DNA of 22,800 bases from Candidatus Magasanikbacteria bacterium RIFCSPLOWO2_02_FULL_44_11 (lineage in GTDB: Bacteria; Patescibacteriota; Patescibacteriia; Magasanikbacterales; GWA2-37-8). A program made the translations under genes and the position numbers. Under the pieces are notes generated by a model that was not told the DNA's origin, made no database searches, and was given only the letters and a program-made list of their open reading frames with translations. Positions 5,513 to 18,202 of this stretch are shown here, in pieces (the first letter of the stretch is position 1; each line of letters starts with the position of its first letter). The stretch is taken from NCBI GenBank assembly GCA_001783035.1, contig MFQK01000001.1, forward strand, positions 12,095-34,894, in the 5' to 3' direction.

Positions 5513-6210
5513 CCAAGGGTTGTTTTATCATGATTGACGGCATCGACGGGAGCGGCAAAAAAACACAACTCGACCTTTTGGTTGCTCGACTAAAAAATTC
5601 CGGTTTGACCGTCGAGACAACCGACTTTCCACAATACGGTACTAAAAGCGCCGGATTGGTGGAAGAGTATCTGAATGGCGCTTATGGTACCGCGGAAGAG
5701 GTGAGCCCCGAACAGGCCTCGATTTTTTATGCCGTTGATCGCTATGCCGCCTCTTTTAAAATCAGAAAATGGTTACAAGAGGGAAAAATTGTCATCACCA
5801 ATCGCTACGTTGCTTCTAACATGGGCCACCAAGGCGGTAAAATTGCCGACCCTGTAAAGCGTGAAGATTTCTTTCGTTGGAATGACCAACTTGAGTTTGG
5901 TATTTTCAACATTCCCAAGCCTGATATCAATATTATTTTACACGTCACGCCCGAGATTGCTCAAGAGCTGGTCGATAAAAAGACGGCTCGATCATATATC
6001 CAAGGAGCGAAGCGAGATATCCACGAAGACAATTTAAGCCATCTGCGTAATGCCGAACAAACTTACCTGTTGATCACCAGACTCTTCCCGGAATATACCT
6101 TAATTGAGTGTGTCGAGGGCGGCAATCTCTTGTCTGTTGAAGAAATCCAGAAAAAAGTCTGGCAGTTTGTCGAACGGCGCTTGAACAACCTTGAAATCGT
6201 CACTACCTAA
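5509..6210 (+). CDS. tmk: Thymidylate kinase
   Basis: Phosphorylates dTMP to dTDP, completing the pathway of this operon. It is 233 residues. The P-loop is G11-IDGSGKKTQ-20. DRYAAS (near 77) and IVITNRYVASNMGHQGGKI carry the DR(Y/H) and TNRY motifs of dTMP kinases, and KTARSYIQGAKRDIHEDN is a basic lid region. The Lys-Lys pair after the P-loop glycine is slightly unusual. The ATG at 5509 overlaps the folA stop; a later ATG at 5530 would remove the residues forming the first strand (KGCFIMIDG). No terminator is visible after the gene, and the promoter of the next gene begins within 10 bp. Confidence 0.93.
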   Translation: MTKGCFIMIDGIDGSGKKTQLDLLVARLKNSGLTVETTDFPQYGTKSAGLVEEYLNGAYGTAEEVSPEQASIFYAVDRYAASFKIRKWLQEGKIVITNRYVASNMGHQGGKIADPVKREDFFRWNDQLEFGIFNIPKPDINIILHVTPEIAQELVDKKTARSYIQGAKRDIHEDNLSHLRNAEQTYLLITRLFPEYTLIECVEGGNLLSVEEIQKKVWQFVERRLNNLEIVTT

Positions 6211-6217
6211 AGCTTGT

Positions 6218-6246
6218 TTGCTTTCCAAAGACGATGCTGCTACAAT
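6218..6246 (+). promoter_or_regulatory. Promoter of the membrane-protein gene
   Basis: TTGCTT (6218-6223), a 17-bp spacer and TACAAT (6241-6246) preceded by TGC. The predicted start near 6253 leaves a leader of about 29 nt before the ATG at 6282. Confidence 0.65.
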
Positions 6247-10609: not shown

Positions 10610-10638
10610 TTGACAAAAGCCCTAAAATCTGATATACT
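10610..10638 (+). promoter_or_regulatory. Strong promoter of the ATP-grasp/FemAB operon
   Basis: A perfect TTGACA (10610-10615), a 17-bp spacer and TATACT (10633-10638) preceded by TGA (extended -10): the best promoter in the window. The predicted start is at 10645 plus or minus 1, giving a leader of about 135 nt, much longer than those of most other genes here. Confidence 0.9.
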
Positions 10639-10646
10639 GTTCAGGT

Positions 10647-10751
10647 GTGAAAATCATTAATTTTAACCGTTTTAGATTCTTCACCACGATACAATTTCCT
10701 GTGCCGGTCGGTATCGGTTTTTTAGCTAACTTACCCCACTTTAGTCCCTAA
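10647..10751 (+). CDS. Possible 34-codon leader peptide ORF (GTG start)
   Basis: A GTG preceded by T lies at the predicted transcription start and opens a 34-codon frame ending in TAA at 10749-10751. The peptide begins MKIINFNRFRFFTTIQF and ends HFSP; seven of 34 residues are Phe and five are Pro. Its stop codon lies exactly where the antiterminator and terminator hairpins overlap, the geometry expected if translation decides between them. It would be essentially leaderless. Against it: the region also folds as RNA (GTGAAAATC 10647-10655 with GATTCTTCAC 10675-10684, and CGATAC 10687-10692 with GTATCG 10711-10716), GTG is a poor leaderless start, and Phe codons are cheap in T-rich DNA. A protein-free attenuator or riboswitch is the alternative. 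Confidence 0.35.
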   Translation: MKIINFNRFRFFTTIQFPVPVGIGFLANLPHFSP

Positions 10752-10779
10752 AGCTATTCCCTAGCTTTTTTGTTTTTTT
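10739..10779 (+). terminator. Attenuator with mutually exclusive hairpins before the ATP-grasp gene
   Basis: The terminator hairpin AAAGCTA (10750-10756)/TAGCTTT (10762-10768), loop TTCCC, is followed by T6-G-T7 ending one base before the ATG at 10780. The overlapping hairpin CTTTAG (10739-10744)/CTAAAG (10748-10753), loop TCC, uses the same bases of the terminator's 5' strand, so both cannot form together. A further upstream TAGCT (10723-10727) could pair with AGCTA (10752-10756). A terminator placed after a strong promoter and before the start codon points to conditional read-through. Confidence 0.75.
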
Positions 10780-13194
10780 ATGGAAAATTCCACTTTAAAC
10801 AAGAAAACGCTGCTACTCGTCAATACCGCCTCGAAAAAGAAGAAATTCATCATCCAGCGCTTAAAGAAGCTCGGCATCAAACTGGTTGTTTTGAATAAAG
10901 AAAAAAATTGGGCCGACCAATATGTTGACCACTGGATTTTCTCCGATACCTACAACCACAATGAATCAATTGCCGCCATCCAAAGCTTCATTAAAACCCA
11001 TCCCAAAGTGAAAATCGATGGGGTAATCACTTTTTGGGAAGACGATGTGCTGCTCACTTCCAAAATAGTGGATCGGTTCGATTTTATCGGCATACCCCTG
11101 GAGGTCGCCAAAAATGTGCGCAATAAGTTTTTGTTCCGCGAGTTTTGTACGACCCACAATATTCGCTCCCCAAAACACAAAATGGTTCGTACCATACGCC
11201 AGCTCAAAAGCGTCACCCGCTATATGTCCTTCCCGTTGGTCATTAAGCCCGCTTATGGAGCGAGCAGCGCCTATGTCGTGAAAGTCACCAACAAAGATGA
11301 GCTTGTTAACACCTATAATTACATAAAGAAAAACATTTCGACCGATTCGGAATCGGCTTTGGCCGATGGTTTGGATATTTTCGTGGAAGAATATATCGAC
11401 GGCGATGAAGTTGACATAGACATCCTGATCCAAAACGGAAAAATTAAATTTTATTCGATCGCCGATAACTTCAATAAAAACCGCGGCGAATTTTTTGTGG
11501 ACAGCGGCCAATCAGTACCTTCCAGCTTACCGGAAAAAGAGCAGACCGAACTGATCGAAATGGCCGAGCAGACGCTGGAAAAATTAAAAATTCAAAATGG
11601 CTGTATCCACTTTGAAGCAAAATCAACCAAACATGGTCCAGTGCCGATCGAAATCAACATGCGTATGGGCGGCGATTACGTTTACTCCTATGTTAAGGGC
11701 GCCTGGAATGTCGATTTGATCGAATGTGCCGCTAAAATAGCCATGGGTGAATATATCACTATAAAAAAACCCGATCGCCCATATAAATTCATCGTGGGCT
11801 GGGATTTGTACCCCGAATCATCCGGTTTGCTGGCCGAATTAAGCCTGTCGGCAGAATTAAAGGGAAAAGATTATCTGGAAGAAATTGATGTTTACAAAGA
11901 AGTTGGCGACTCGGTGCTTTTGCCGCCCGAGGGTTATGAAAGTCTGGGGTGGATTACAGTGTCTGGAGACAATTTACTAAATGCCCAGGACAACATGAAG
12001 GCCGCGCTCGGTTTTATAAAGTACAAAGTGGTCCACTTTAATCAAGAGTCGGCACTTGGTAAAACGGCCAGAAAAAACCGTCTTTCGGCGGCGGTTTTCA
12101 AAAAAGATTTGTTGTTACAGGCGGCTAAAATTGAAAAGGTCCGTCGTATTTCCTTGCATGACCAGCGTCGTCTGCATATTGGCATTGCCGCCAATATCTC
12201 GGGTGACATGGGAAATTATTACGGCGACGACCTCAAAGAGGTGGCTTTCGCCGTCGATCGTGAACTGACCAGGCGAGGTTATCTCACGACAATTTTTGAT
12301 TTTAATAATCTCTCCAAAGTTTTCAATGAGCTGCGCCGCAGCGATGTCGATCTGGTCTTGAATATCGCCGAAGGAATCAACAATACCGATGTCCTCAAAC
12401 CACAGGTGGCGGCAATTTTAGAAATGTTGCATATCCCATACACCGGAACAAACTCATTTAACCTGGCCTTGTGTCGGGACAAGATCAGACTTAAAAAATT
12501 ATTTTCTTTTCACAATATCCCGACACCAAAATGGGATTACGCCTACGACGTTAAGGATGCTATAAAACCGGATCTCCAGTACCCGCTTATTGTTAAGCCG
12601 GCAAACACGGATAATTCCGAAGGTATTACCCATGAATCGGTGGTGACCAACGAGAAACAGTTGCGCAAGCAGCTGAAATATGTGCTCGTGGATATGCAGC
12701 GTCCCGCCCTGGTCGAGGAATATATCCATGGTGATGAATTTGAAGTGCTTATTCTCGGCGACCGTAAAGATGCCATCCAGGTACTCCCTCTCTCTAGAAC
12801 CGTTTTTAAACCGATTCGCGGACAAAAAAAATGGTCCATCTACACTCAAGATGCGAAATGGTCGAAAATTGGTTTAGGGAAAAGATTCACCATTCAACGT
12901 CCGGCCAAAAATATCAGCAAAAAGCTGGAATCGTTGCTGACAGAAATCGCGCTCGATGCTTATAACATTTCGCACTGTAAAGATTACGGCAAAGTGGAGC
13001 TTCGCGTTGATAAGGACGATAACCCATATGTAATCGAAGTCAATCCCAATCCGCCAATCAGCGCGAAATCAGATATGACATTATCGGCTGAAATAATTAA
13101 CATGAATTACGGCGACCTGTTGGAAGAAATTATCCGGTTGTGTGTCAAGCGCTATAACCAGAATAAATCTTTGTATCATCGACTGATTAGTTAA
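10780..13194 (+). CDS. Fused double ATP-grasp ligase (amino-acid ligase-like plus D-Ala-D-Ala ligase-like)
   Basis: An 804-residue fusion of two ATP-grasp enzymes, which form amide bonds through acyl-phosphate intermediates. Module 1 (about 8-460) has a pre-grasp domain, the ATP-binding FPLVIKPAYGASSAYV (about 150-165), VEEYIDGDEVDIDIL (about 204-218) and the metal-binding PIEINMRMGGDYVY (about 289-302), followed by a domain like the C-terminal part of L-amino-acid ligases. Module 2 (about 464-804) has RRLHIGIAANISGDMGNYYG, CRDKIRLKKLF, YPLIVKPANTDNSEGIT, VEEYIHGDEFEVLIL and VIEVNPNPPIS, as in D-Ala-D-Ala ligases. The catalytic Glu/Asn residues of both grasp sites look intact. The product is unknown; a dipeptide or tripeptide, or a modified peptidoglycan precursor, is plausible. 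It is followed after 2 bp by two FemAB-like transferases, preceded by an attenuator, and driven by a strong promoter. It could also be a purely cytoplasmic peptide synthetase. Confidence 0.88.
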   Translation: MENSTLNKKTLLLVNTASKKKKFIIQRLKKLGIKLVVLNKEKNWADQYVDHWIFSDTYNHNESIAAIQSFIKTHPKVKIDGVITFWEDDVLLTSKIVDRFDFIGIPLEVAKNVRNKFLFREFCTTHNIRSPKHKMVRTIRQLKSVTRYMSFPLVIKPAYGASSAYVVKVTNKDELVNTYNYIKKNISTDSESALADGLDIFVEEYIDGDEVDIDILIQNGKIKFYSIADNFNKNRGEFFVDSGQSVPSSLPEKEQTELIEMAEQTLEKLKIQNGCIHFEAKSTKHGPVPIEINMRMGGDYVYSYVKGAWNVDLIECAAKIAMGEYITIKKPDRPYKFIVGWDLYPESSGLLAELSLSAELKGKDYLEEIDVYKEVGDSVLLPPEGYESLGWITVSGDNLLNAQDNMKAALGFIKYKVVHFNQESALGKTARKNRLSAAVFKKDLLLQAAKIEKVRRISLHDQRRLHIGIAANISGDMGNYYGDDLKEVAFAVDRELTRRGYLTTIFDFNNLSKVFNELRRSDVDLVLNIAEGINNTDVLKPQVAAILEMLHIPYTGTNSFNLALCRDKIRLKKLFSFHNIPTPKWDYAYDVKDAIKPDLQYPLIVKPANTDNSEGITHESVVTNEKQLRKQLKYVLVDMQRPALVEEYIHGDEFEVLILGDRKDAIQVLPLSRTVFKPIRGQKKWSIYTQDAKWSKIGLGKRFTIQRPAKNISKKLESLLTEIALDAYNISHCKDYGKVELRVDKDDNPYVIEVNPNPPISAKSDMTLSAEIINMNYGDLLEEIIRLCVKRYNQNKSLYHRLIS

Positions 13195-13196
13195 CT

Positions 13197-14126
13197 ATGA
13201 CTTCATTTCGAATAGAATGTATAAACGATTTAGCGGCTGCCAAAACCTGGTGGGAACGTTTTTCTCCGCGGAAAACACTATACGACATTTGGGAATTTCG
13301 CTATTGCTTTTACAAACCGTTTCAATATGAGTTATTCTTTTACGTTGGCTATGTCGGTAATGAACCAATCGGACTTTTAGCCCTACAATACAATTCTCGC
13401 CATGAATTATTTGAACCTTTTGGCGGCAGCTTCATGTCGAACATTCAGGTTTTTTGCGACGAAAAACATTCGAAATATGTTCCCAACTTTTACGCCGCCA
13501 TTCCGTCTCCGGCCGTGCTCACCGATATTGTTGGCTGTGACCCCTTTACGATGAGTCTGCCTTTTTCAAACTATCGCTATATTCTCGACCTAACAGCAAT
13601 AAAAAGTGGCGAAGAATATTTGGAAAAATGCGTTAATTCCAAATTTCGCAGCAATGTTAAAAGACGCGTAAAATTAATGGAGGAGACCGGAATTCAAGTC
13701 ACCAGAAACAATTTTACCGATATTGATAAGCTAATCGAACTTAATCTTAAAACTTTTCCCGACTCCAGTTTTAATAAGCCGCACCGTCCGGAAATATTTC
13801 GTGATTTGTTACGCCAAAATTTTAACACGGAGCTACTGTCTTTTTCGATAGACGGTAAAGTCGTCGCCGTTTGCCTGGCTTTTGTTTTCAACGGTATTTA
13901 TCTGAACATTAACATGGGTGCGGATAAGTCTGTGTCGCCACACTTGTGGACCTATGTTACGTTTTATAAGCTCCGACATGCGATTGAGCTCGGCTGCCGG
14001 CAATTTGATTCTGGAATGGAAGACTGCTCCTGGAAGGAGCACTGGGGACACGGTAAATTACCAGAATATAAATTTTATAAACCAGCCGTGGTTACTTTAC
14101 CACAGCCCACGACAACTACGGTATGA
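13197..14126 (+). CDS. FemAB/BioF2-like GNAT-fold acyltransferase, first paralogue
   Basis: A 309-residue protein of the FemAB-like branch of the GNAT fold (BioF2-like acetyltransferase, Acetyltransf_6 type). FRSNVKRRVKLMEETGIQV (about 149-167) is the characteristic basic segment of the family (S/R-N-x-R-R-K pattern), followed by IDKLIELNLKTFPDSSFNKP and, in the second half of the fold, LLSFSIDGKVVAVCLAF. The C-terminal part FDSGMEDCSWKEHWG is aromatic and conserved in the next gene. Relatives transfer amino acids from aminoacyl-tRNA, or acyl groups from acyl-CoA, to an amine. No signal peptide or membrane segment. Its TGA stop overlaps the next start (ATGA). The substrate is unknown; operon partners suggest that it extends or caps the ligase product. 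Confidence 0.78.
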   Translation: MTSFRIECINDLAAAKTWWERFSPRKTLYDIWEFRYCFYKPFQYELFFYVGYVGNEPIGLLALQYNSRHELFEPFGGSFMSNIQVFCDEKHSKYVPNFYAAIPSPAVLTDIVGCDPFTMSLPFSNYRYILDLTAIKSGEEYLEKCVNSKFRSNVKRRVKLMEETGIQVTRNNFTDIDKLIELNLKTFPDSSFNKPHRPEIFRDLLRQNFNTELLSFSIDGKVVAVCLAFVFNGIYLNINMGADKSVSPHLWTYVTFYKLRHAIELGCRQFDSGMEDCSWKEHWGHGKLPEYKFYKPAVVTLPQPTTTTV

Positions 14127-15049
14127 ACCAGACACTCCGTTTTGAAATTATAAAGGATCTGGCTGCGGCCCAAAAAATCTGGGAATCACTTTCACCCCAC
14201 GAAACGATCTACGACGATTGGGATTTTAGAAATACTTTCCACGCCTATCATAAAAAGGAATTATTTTTTATAGTCGGTTACCAAGACACGGAAGCAGCCG
14301 GTTTACTTGCCCTCCAATACAACAATGATCAAAATTATTTTGAATTTTGGGGTGGCAGCTATATGGAAGATAACCGCGTGATGGTAAAGCCGGGTTACGA
14401 AAATCTTATTCCGGAGTTTTATAATTTTGGCGGCACTTTAGGAAAACCGTTGCGCCTCGAATATATCCGCGGTAATGATGCCTACACCACTTCCCTGCCG
14501 TTTCAAGATTACAAATTTGTCTTGCCGCTAAAAAATTTTAGCGACACAAACGATTATCTCGATGCCGTCTTTAGCGGTGAATCCAAGAAAAAGCTGGTTA
14601 AGCGACTAAAAAAAATTGATGACCTGGGAGTCACTATCGAAGAAGATAATTGGGCCGATTTAGAACTTTTGATCAATTGGAATATAGCCGCCTTTTCCGA
14701 CTCCGCCTTCATTGACCGGCCGTTTCACAAGGAAATTTTTCGGGATTTACTCAAACCACACGCTACTTTTCAGGCGCGTTTACTTACCTTCAATATTGGT
14801 GGGAAAAAACAAGCGGTAACGATGGGCCTGGTGTACAATAAAACTTATGCCTCGGTCAATCGAGGTATTGATCCGGAAGCGGATAAAAATGTACGCGAGT
14901 ATATCCACGTAAAGAAAGTGGCCGACGCTCTCAAACTAGGTGGCGAGCTTTTTGACGCTTTTGTCGGCGACTATGGCTGGAAAGAACGGTGGGGTTGCCA
15001 AAAAATCCCGCAACACTCCTTTATTACCTCATCTACCGAACGAGTTTAA
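14123..15049 (+). CDS. FemAB/BioF2-like GNAT-fold acyltransferase, second paralogue
   Basis: A 308-residue paralogue of the preceding gene, aligning over its whole length. Shared blocks include the start (IKDLAAAQKIWESLSPHETIYDDWDFR here, INDLAAAKTWWERFSP there), GLLALQYNN, SLPFQDYKFVLPL, the basic KKKLVKRLKKIDDLGV segment, FRDLLKPH and the C-terminal FVGDYGWKERWG. The two copies have diverged strongly, so the duplication is old and they probably have different substrates or act in sequence, as FemA and FemB do. It starts 4 bp inside the previous gene and ends 17 bp inside the convergent ileS gene, with no terminator visible. Confidence 0.78.
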   Translation: MNQTLRFEIIKDLAAAQKIWESLSPHETIYDDWDFRNTFHAYHKKELFFIVGYQDTEAAGLLALQYNNDQNYFEFWGGSYMEDNRVMVKPGYENLIPEFYNFGGTLGKPLRLEYIRGNDAYTTSLPFQDYKFVLPLKNFSDTNDYLDAVFSGESKKKLVKRLKKIDDLGVTIEEDNWADLELLINWNIAAFSDSAFIDRPFHKEIFRDLLKPHATFQARLLTFNIGGKKQAVTMGLVYNKTYASVNRGIDPEADKNVREYIHVKKVADALKLGGELFDAFVGDYGWKERWGCQKIPQHSFITSSTERV

Positions 15050-17987: not shown

Positions 17988-17995
17988 AGTTAAAC

Positions 17996-18019
17996 AAAAA
18001 ACACGCTTAAAATTGCGTG
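17996..18019 (-). terminator. Terminator of the ileS T-box leader
   Basis: On the minus strand CACGC/GCGTG (18019-18015 with 18006-18002) closes an eight-base loop AATTTTAA and is followed by six T (18001-17996). G-T pairs can extend its base toward the UCUUG strand of the antiterminator, which would make the two structures compete. It ends about 9 bp before the ATG. Confidence 0.8.
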
Positions 18020-18167
18020 CCAAGAGTCACCGACATTTGTCGGGACGGTACCATCTTGTGCTTTCACTTATTTGCAGCGTTGACGGGCTTACCCGAGGAG
18101 GTCTACTTCCCGTCTAGAGGACGGATTTCTACTCCCAGCTCCCCGCTGATAACGGGTAATCGCTTAT
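17996..18167 (-). promoter_or_regulatory. T-box riboswitch leader of ileS
   Basis: Read on the minus strand. Stem I is only CCCG/CGGG (18156-18142) with loop UUAUCAG holding the isoleucine specifier AUC (18150-18148). A second arm CCGUC/GACGG follows, flanked by AGUA (18133-18130) and GAA (18109-18107), as in the S-turn of Stem II. Next comes CGGG/CCCG with loop UAAG (18095-18084). The antiterminator is textbook: CAAGA/UCUUG (18058-18054 with 18025-18021), the seven-base bulge UGGUACC (18053-18047) whose UGGU pairs with the ACCA end of tRNA(Ile), and the A2 stem (18046-18026). A short terminator follows. This is the ultrashort-Stem-I layout known for actinobacterial ileS, but with a terminator rather than a Shine-Dalgarno sequester. 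Core element certain; stem assignments by eye. Confidence 0.88.
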
Positions 18168-18173
18168 GTTTTA

Positions 18174-18202
18174 ATTGTATTCTTAAACTGCACTTTTGTC
18201 AA
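18174..18202 (-). promoter_or_regulatory. Promoter of ileS
   Basis: On the minus strand TTGACA (18202-18197), a 17-bp spacer and TACAAT (18179-18174). The predicted start near 18167 places Stem I of the T-box within the first dozen nucleotides. Confidence 0.82.

Follow-up and report, generated by a model that had tools for sequence, protein, structure and literature searches.

The leader of an ATP-grasp operon

The DNA analysed (the window) is a stretch of 22,800 nucleotides (nt) from contig MFQK01000001.1 of Candidatus Magasanikbacteria bacterium RIFCSPLOWO2_02_FULL_44_11, and the element in question is the leader upstream of an operon that begins with a gene for a double ATP-grasp protein. 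In relatives of this enzyme, a very short open reading frame (ORF) with an acidic-proline motif recurs between the promoter and a terminator that abuts the ATP-grasp gene. The features of the leader and of the first gene in the window are as follows.

10610..10638, + strand: sigma-70-type promoter TTGACA-N17-TATACT with a TG before the -10 hexamer, score 11/12
10645..10779, + strand: predicted leader RNA of 135 nt, the start being placed by its spacing from the -10 hexamer
10647..10751, + strand: GTG ORF of 34 codons with 7 Phe, read from the sequence; translation putative
10739..10753, + strand: small hairpin overlapping the 5' arm of the terminator (the antiterminator of the initial annotation), -3.0 kcal/mol alone
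10750..10768, + strand: intrinsic terminator hairpin AAAGCUA-UUCCC-UAGCUUU, -5.3 kcal/mol, z -3.1 versus shuffles
10766..10779, + strand: T-tract T6-G-T7, read from the sequence, reaching the ATG at 10780
10780..13194, + strand: double ATP-grasp protein of 804 aa (L-amino-acid-ligase-like half plus D-Ala-D-Ala-ligase-like half)

An initial annotation of this DNA had described the leader as a transcription attenuator, possibly with a Phe-rich leader peptide, behind the best promoter of the window. The promoter is present as described and is the joint best, as three further sites in the window likewise score 11/12. The terminator hairpin and the long T-tracts running to the ATG were borne out. 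Of the 16 nt that precede the ATG, 13 are T, a count reached by only 3 of 810 gene entries of the genome, i.e. the ATP-grasp gene itself and two of the other 809. The strength of the hairpin as such is ordinary: among the 412 gene entries with long gaps upstream, 99 reach -5.3 kcal/mol or lower. This gene set was built from 20-kb pieces; it lacks the last few hundred bases of two contigs and holds about 7.9 kb of contig 1 twice, such that 9 of the 810 and 4 of the 412 entries are duplicates.

The GTG frame (putative product MKIINFNRFRFFTTIQFPVPVGIGFLANLPHFSP) was also found as annotated, with a TAA that overlaps the first bases of the terminator hairpin, at its base. Its seven Phe compare with 4.3 +/- 1.2 expected from composition (p 0.03). 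Frames that end near the hairpin arose in 7.7% of shuffles when they had to start no more than 12 nt from the -10 hexamer and to have at least 12 codons, and in 14.4% when starts up to 60 nt away were allowed and at least 30 codons were required. The proposed antiterminator does fold alone and does overlap the terminator arm; pairing of this 5' arm with upstream RNA in the window was at shuffle level (p 0.485). A hairpin with a T-run inside the GTG frame (10703-10718) was not significant (z -0.61), and the fold of the whole leader was not unusually stable (z -0.77 versus shuffles). Rfam produced no match in the window at the gathering threshold, and a search of the leader at E <= 10 returned sub-threshold matches only, all of them to unrelated families. 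No acidic-proline ORF was found upstream of the ATP-grasp gene in any + strand frame, and the GTG ORF is devoid of the motif. Taken alone, the GTG frame and the competing hairpin of the window are no more than chance.

A recurrent module in relatives of the enzyme

Relatives of the enzyme were found in 64 of 95 related genomes at E 0.001, in 20 of 86 genomes of the order and, at E 1e-60, in 29 of 380 and 16 of 379 genomes sampled from the class and the phylum, respectively. No full-length relative with >59% amino-acid identity was detected in the 86 order genomes, the class and phylum samples or the genome contig collection; the nearest fragment match (L062; loci are designated by L numbers) exhibited 60% over 272 residues. 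The 82 loci with an N-terminus were brought down to 68 by sequence-identity reduction, and 67 of these have at least 200 nt upstream. Upstream sequences are identical within the pairs L053/L013, L054/L003, L040/L009 and L039/L010.

An ORF of 15-50 codons with an acidic-proline motif lies between a promoter and a terminator before the ATP-grasp gene in 24 of the 67 non-redundant loci, the window being among the misses. A strict count, in which an ATG ORF of 12-55 codons carrying the motif had to lie within 200 nt upstream of the ATP-grasp gene, gave 19 of 67 loci (the window again being a miss), as compared to a mean of 0.71 and a maximum of 5 in 200 runs of dinucleotide shuffling, 0 for the reverse complement and 1 of 179 for other genes of the same loci. 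The five further loci (L006, L051, L053, L068 and L087) were added by eye, and L053 was left out of the stop/hairpin and codon measurements (hence n = 23). The motif takes forms such as EEPPDG, SEDPYP and DEPDS, and examples of the ORF products are MDSSSSEDPYPITNYLIYINNTRI (L008), MSHISCTTDEPDSILIKKHSQNC (L014), MEASYSKEEPEPNSTIHHRNQPALFL (L020), MHTSSLEEPPSIVLN (L089) and MEITKEEDQPPENLNKNG (L044). L004 and L084, both from genome G042, are paralogous ATP-grasp genes, each with a different acidic-proline leader ORF and terminator. When the 68 loci were scanned throughout for a motif ORF plus terminator (with a slightly wider pattern), 17 of 19 matches were situated directly before the ATP-grasp ATG.

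Hairpins of -8 kcal/mol or lower were present in the last 80 nt of 17 of the 24 loci with the ORF versus 3 of the 43 without it (the window is in neither count), and shuffling of the 24 leaders produced a mean of 0.6 and a maximum of 2 such hairpins (30 runs). Weak hairpins (-2.0 to -4.9 kcal/mol) were observed for L006, L019, L051 and L068. The hairpin scanner took a wrong, larger hairpin for L050 and an inner, upstream one for the window, for which 10750-10768 was used instead. In all 23 measured leaders, the stop codon falls at most 17 nt before the hairpin, within it or past it, and in L015, L050 and L073 the ORF crosses the hairpin and extends to the ATP-grasp start. Among 111 gene ends in these loci that have a hairpin of -6 or better nearby, 50 show this geometry, a contrast that is only suggestive and no clean test because short leaders leave scant room and the energy limits differed. 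Counted from the ORF start, the hairpin begins at a distance of 48-108 nt in 22 relatives and of 103 nt in the window, whose GTG frame occupies the position of the relatives' acidic-proline ORFs with a different sequence. Promoter hexamers and a 17-nt spacer identical to those of the window precede the leader ORFs of L008, L012, L014, L015 and L084. Shine-Dalgarno sequences are rare, both upstream of other genes (18 of 208) and of leader ORFs (2 of 24, the window counted), indicating that a near-leaderless start lacking such a sequence is normal in these bacteria. At the level of sequence, a promoter, a short ORF and a terminator abutting the ATP-grasp ATG are a recurrent, non-chance module of this enzyme family.

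In 20 of 23 ORFs, the first Pro of the motif falls between residues 6 and 14. Each of the four Pro codons and each of the four Asp/Glu codons is represented in the motif among these ORFs, indicating a constraint on amino acids near the start and not on the RNA. Between L008 and L012, the first 17 codons exhibit four synonymous and three non-synonymous changes; the last seven codons exhibit five non-synonymous changes, yet the core of the hairpin arms is kept. L044 and L050 differ by a one-base indel that shifts the frame after about 15 conserved residues, such that the N-terminus is kept and the C-terminus is not. Of the 44 loci that have no separate ORF (the window counted), 5 carry the motif within the first 22 residues of the enzyme itself; the corresponding figures are 0 of 24 for loci that do have the ORF and 1 of 232 for other genes. 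The AlphaFold model of one of these fused proteins (L052) gives residues 1-21 a predicted local distance difference test (pLDDT) score <50, i.e. the motif stretch is disordered in the model.

Of the 611 residues in the 23 relatives' ORFs, 34 are Phe; for the six sister-clade ORFs the figure is 5 of 186, and for the window 7 of 34. Antiterminator pairing over the 24 leaders was at chance (mean z -0.03), with L084 alone standing out (p 0.005). The comparison by conservation for which the initial annotation had called gave a divided outcome. The attenuator leader it proposed corresponds to a module that recurs in relatives, with both the short ORF and the terminator; the antiterminator and the leader sequence of the window are not conserved, and the feature shared by the peptides is an acidic-proline motif in place of the Phe codons from which Phe control had been proposed.

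A tree of 66 ATP-grasp proteins places the window as the sister (SH-like approximate likelihood ratio test, SH-aLRT, 99) of seven rows, six of which have the separate ORF. Presence or absence of the ORF is clustered on this tree but changes often, with 15 changes over all labels versus a shuffled mean of 25.1. As six of the seven members of the sister clade have the module, the leader of the window is probably a diverged copy that lacks the motif, and the simplest reading of the tree is that its ancestor had an acidic-proline ORF. The promoter, the spacing and the terminator are retained in the window and the motif is gone; the GTG frame, with its putative peptide, appears to retain the geometry of the module only. 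The rest of the genome was also searched for the motif peptide, in front of the 412 gene entries whose upstream gap is 90 nt or longer. Four have a motif ORF and none fits: three are without a terminator-like hairpin and the fourth has one of only -1.5 kcal/mol. An alternative frame of the window (LDSSPRYNF...), which had been likened to the sister peptides, was dropped; it has no ATG, GTG or TTG start and its DNA alignment is at shuffle level.

The operon, its neighbourhood and other leaders

The ATP-grasp gene is followed by two genes.

13197..14126, + strand: Acetyltransf_6 domain protein of 309 aa, of a sequence cluster found in 14 distinct loci (the window counted once)
14123..15049, + strand: second Acetyltransf_6 domain protein of 308 aa, by domain match

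We take the 309-aa protein to be FemAB-like. The best solved relatives of the ATP-grasp protein are 3vot for the L-amino-acid-ligase-like half (E 1e-24) and 3r23 for the D-Ala-D-Ala-ligase-like half (E 7.6e-17). The genome of this uncultured bacterium is small (983,246 bases in 56 contigs). It contains a gene for EF-P, and its ABC-F proteins exhibited only sub-cut-off matches to the EttA-type model.

In the window, L008, L016, L017 and L034, i.e. the window's family and near kin, the operon lies in a neighbourhood that is conserved and includes ileS and a NIF3-like gene; ruvA is also present in some loci, and rearrangements occur. A family of about 457 aa (cluster c2) was found near the ATP-grasp gene in 16 loci (e.g. 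downstream of it in L073), and a search with one member produced no Pfam or NCBIfam match at E 0.001.

Two T-box-like leaders were observed in the genome. One precedes ileS (TIGR00392) on the minus strand of the window (17988-18187) and comprises a promoter at 18202-18174, an antiterminator at 18021-18058 (CAAGA-UGGUACC-GUC...GAC-UCUUG) and a terminator at 18001-18020, 13 nt before the ATG; its fold has a z of -2.4, and an AUC was seen by eye in a candidate specifier loop. We take these features to be T-box-like; Rfam reports no T-box at this leader. The other precedes thrS (TIGR00418) on contig C44 of the same genome (L152, about 6170-6232, + strand) and consists of a T-box-like antiterminator (UCGGG-UGGAACC-GUC...GAC-CCCGA) and then a strong terminator 17 nt before the ATG, and here too Rfam reports no T-box. 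No other T-box-like match emerged when 200 nt were scanned upstream of each of the 363 gene entries whose upstream gap is 120 nt or longer. In the literature searched, nothing was found for 'T-box riboswitch' with Patescibacteria or for T-box and riboswitch with candidate phyla radiation (CPR).

In 37 of the 412 gene entries, a terminator-like hairpin ends no more than 30 nt from the ATG, and attenuator-like leaders may therefore be common in this genome. Examples lie before the genes for ribosomal protein L10 (L137:6598) and ftsH (L163:2501), before L101:2365 and before L114:16085, which is presumably aspS-like.

How the leader may act

The leader is most likely a ribosome-coupled attenuator of the pyrBI type, with the acidic-proline motif serving as a translation brake in the relatives; this reading is tentative, and we assign it a rough probability of 0.38. 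The module, the motif, the geometry and the place of the window in the tree can be read from sequence; termination, translation, coupling and sensing are inferred. A ribosome close behind RNA polymerase would reach the end of the ORF and mask or unzip the 5' arm of the terminator, and the operon would be read through. Late initiation, pausing or drop-off of the ribosome would allow the hairpin to form, and the transcript would end at about 10766-10779. In the relatives, the pause element would be the motif at about residue 6-14. Good leader translation would produce read-through and poor leader translation would produce termination. This is the polarity, the reverse of trp/phe attenuation, that the initial annotation had predicted for a ribosome at the stop codon, and the stop/hairpin geometry that would underlie it recurs in the 23 relatives. 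As competing RNA structures are no family feature, the ribosome itself is suggested as the switch, and the module suggests, without proving it, that translation of a tiny acidic-proline peptide controls the operon. Acidic-proline-type sequences slow or destabilise ribosomes, and EF-P or EttA helps in E. coli.

Published precedents are in keeping with the geometry. In pyrBI of E. coli, the leader ORF pyrL runs to or through an intrinsic terminator and a coupled ribosome blocks the hairpin (PMC4824070, PMC5021804). Ribosomes almost completely suppress an intrinsic terminator that lies several bases past a stop codon, and termination is restored at a distance of ~30 nt (PMC4824070); and a polyproline stretch before the pyrL terminator combined with loss of EF-P raises termination (PMC5021804). 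By its sequence, the window likewise has an intrinsic terminator between the promoter and the first gene. Unlike pyrBI, with its regulated pausing of RNA polymerase, the element kept by the relatives is the acidic-proline motif, which is absent in the window. Within the first 30 residues, acidic motifs (many of them with Pro) make ribosomes pause or dissociate, EPDP of MgtL being an example, and EttA relieves this (PMC11282234). Tiny leader peptides with acidic/Pro or Pro-Pro sequences also precede mgtA (MgtL) and mgtC (mgtP) of enteric bacteria (PMC11282234, PMC5021804). The relatives' ORFs have such a motif in the first 30 residues and the window ORF does not. MgtL works through an altered RNA conformation and Rho-dependent termination; here, the leader ORF is directly followed by an intrinsic terminator and no family-wide RNA switch was found. 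Drop-off turns the gene ON for MgtL, whereas it should turn the gene OFF here.

Several points weigh against pyrBI-type attenuation. Over the first 100 bp, RNA polymerase is likely to stay ahead of the ribosome unless held at a pause site (PMC4824070). Because the hairpins lie 48-108 nt past the ORF start (103 nt in the window), a polymerase pause must be assumed, and coupling of transcription and translation in these bacteria is a further assumption. The separate ORF is lacking in 43 of the 67 loci (the window included), and L011, a congener of L008 and L012, is without it. The pattern for the motif was defined with the first sequences already in view and was applied unchanged in all controls, and the stop/hairpin contrast is, as stated, only suggestive. 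N-terminal fusions of the motif, preceded by no separate ORF, are left unexplained by a pure attenuator. For the window itself, the ORF has no motif and a GTG start, its geometry is not rare among shuffles, the hairpin is weaker than 19 of the 24 relatives' hairpins, and the leader DNA resembles no other leader and is not alignable (p 0.56 versus shuffles).

Alternatively, the peptide may itself be the product, serving the ATP-grasp ligases as a precursor, partner or carrier (i.e. resembling ribosomally synthesised and post-translationally modified peptides), with the terminator setting an excess of peptide over enzyme and the peptide diverged or lost in the window. We consider this possible, and pyrBI-type attenuation and a peptide product may both hold. 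The location of the peptide gene directly before an amino-acid/peptide ligase is consistent with such a role, as are the Acetyltransf_6, SET-domain or epimerase-like neighbours in some loci, the retention of the motif at the amino-acid level and its fusion to the enzyme in five loci, never alongside a separate ORF. A further neighbour of the ATP-grasp gene is presumably aminopeptidase-like. Graspetide clusters with precursors near ATP-grasp genes have been reported in CPR bacteria, and the presence of a small peptide gene near an ATP-grasp gene in the relatives resembles these clusters, although the precursor features differ (PMC8939145). Unlike graspetides, the ligase here is a double enzyme (L-amino-acid-ligase-like plus D-Ala-D-Ala-ligase-like) and the 15-50-residue peptides keep only an N-terminal motif; the graspetide signature P-h-h-x(1,2)-h was present in 2 of 24 ORFs and GG in 0 of 24 (the window included). 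Only about the first 15 residues are kept, the C-termini overlap or approach the hairpin, and the frameshift between L044 and L050 is tolerated. The overlap of stop codon and hairpin is unexpected for a terminator that plainly sets a ratio, and the low pLDDT scores of the L052 fusion give no indication of docking, which is weak evidence.

The window may instead hold a decaying module, in which the peptide ORF has been lost, the promoter and terminator act as a constitutive partial brake and the GTG ORF is due to chance. This, too, is possible, if slightly less likely than a peptide product. The absence of an acidic-proline ORF from every + strand frame upstream, the 8-14% chance probability of the GTG frame, the relative weakness of the hairpin and the absence of the ORF from L011 within its genus would all fit decay; the near-consensus promoter, a T-tract with so few equals in the genome and the arrangement of promoter, frame, stop and hairpin, which is still like that of the relatives, argue against it.

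The remaining alternatives are very improbable. A classical amino-acid attenuator with a Phe-rich leader peptide and antiterminator would account for the seven Phe in 34 codons and the overlapping hairpins, and shares with trp/phe-type attenuators a leader ORF and terminator before an operon; unlike these, the relatives have no regulatory codon run in common and no family-wide antiterminator, their ORFs are poor in Phe (above all in the sister clade), the polarity would be wrong and the operon proteins have no match to a Phe pathway. A riboswitch, which the initial annotation had offered as its alternative, or a protein-binding leader would suit a 135-nt leader ending in a terminator, but is disfavoured by the Rfam result, by the unremarkable fold of the leader and by relatives that share neither leader homology nor a conserved competing pairing.

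In a wider form of the attenuation reading, which we consider unlikely, Patescibacteria would possess widespread attenuators with an acidic-proline brake and the stop codon as an anti-terminator, and the window would be a divergent case with the brake replaced. The ligase operon would then be made only if ribosomes pass the motif quickly, which would depend on EF-P, an ABC-F factor, Mg2+ or charged tRNA-Pro, and some lineages would have moved the motif into the N-terminus of the enzyme. To our knowledge, gene regulation in Patescibacteria has been little explored by experiment. No description of the module or of this class of short peptides was found in the titles or abstract openings of a limited open-access literature. 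The leader module recurs across the group and, if the peptide were the product, very short peptides that go with a double amino-acid ligase would form a class not recognised so far.

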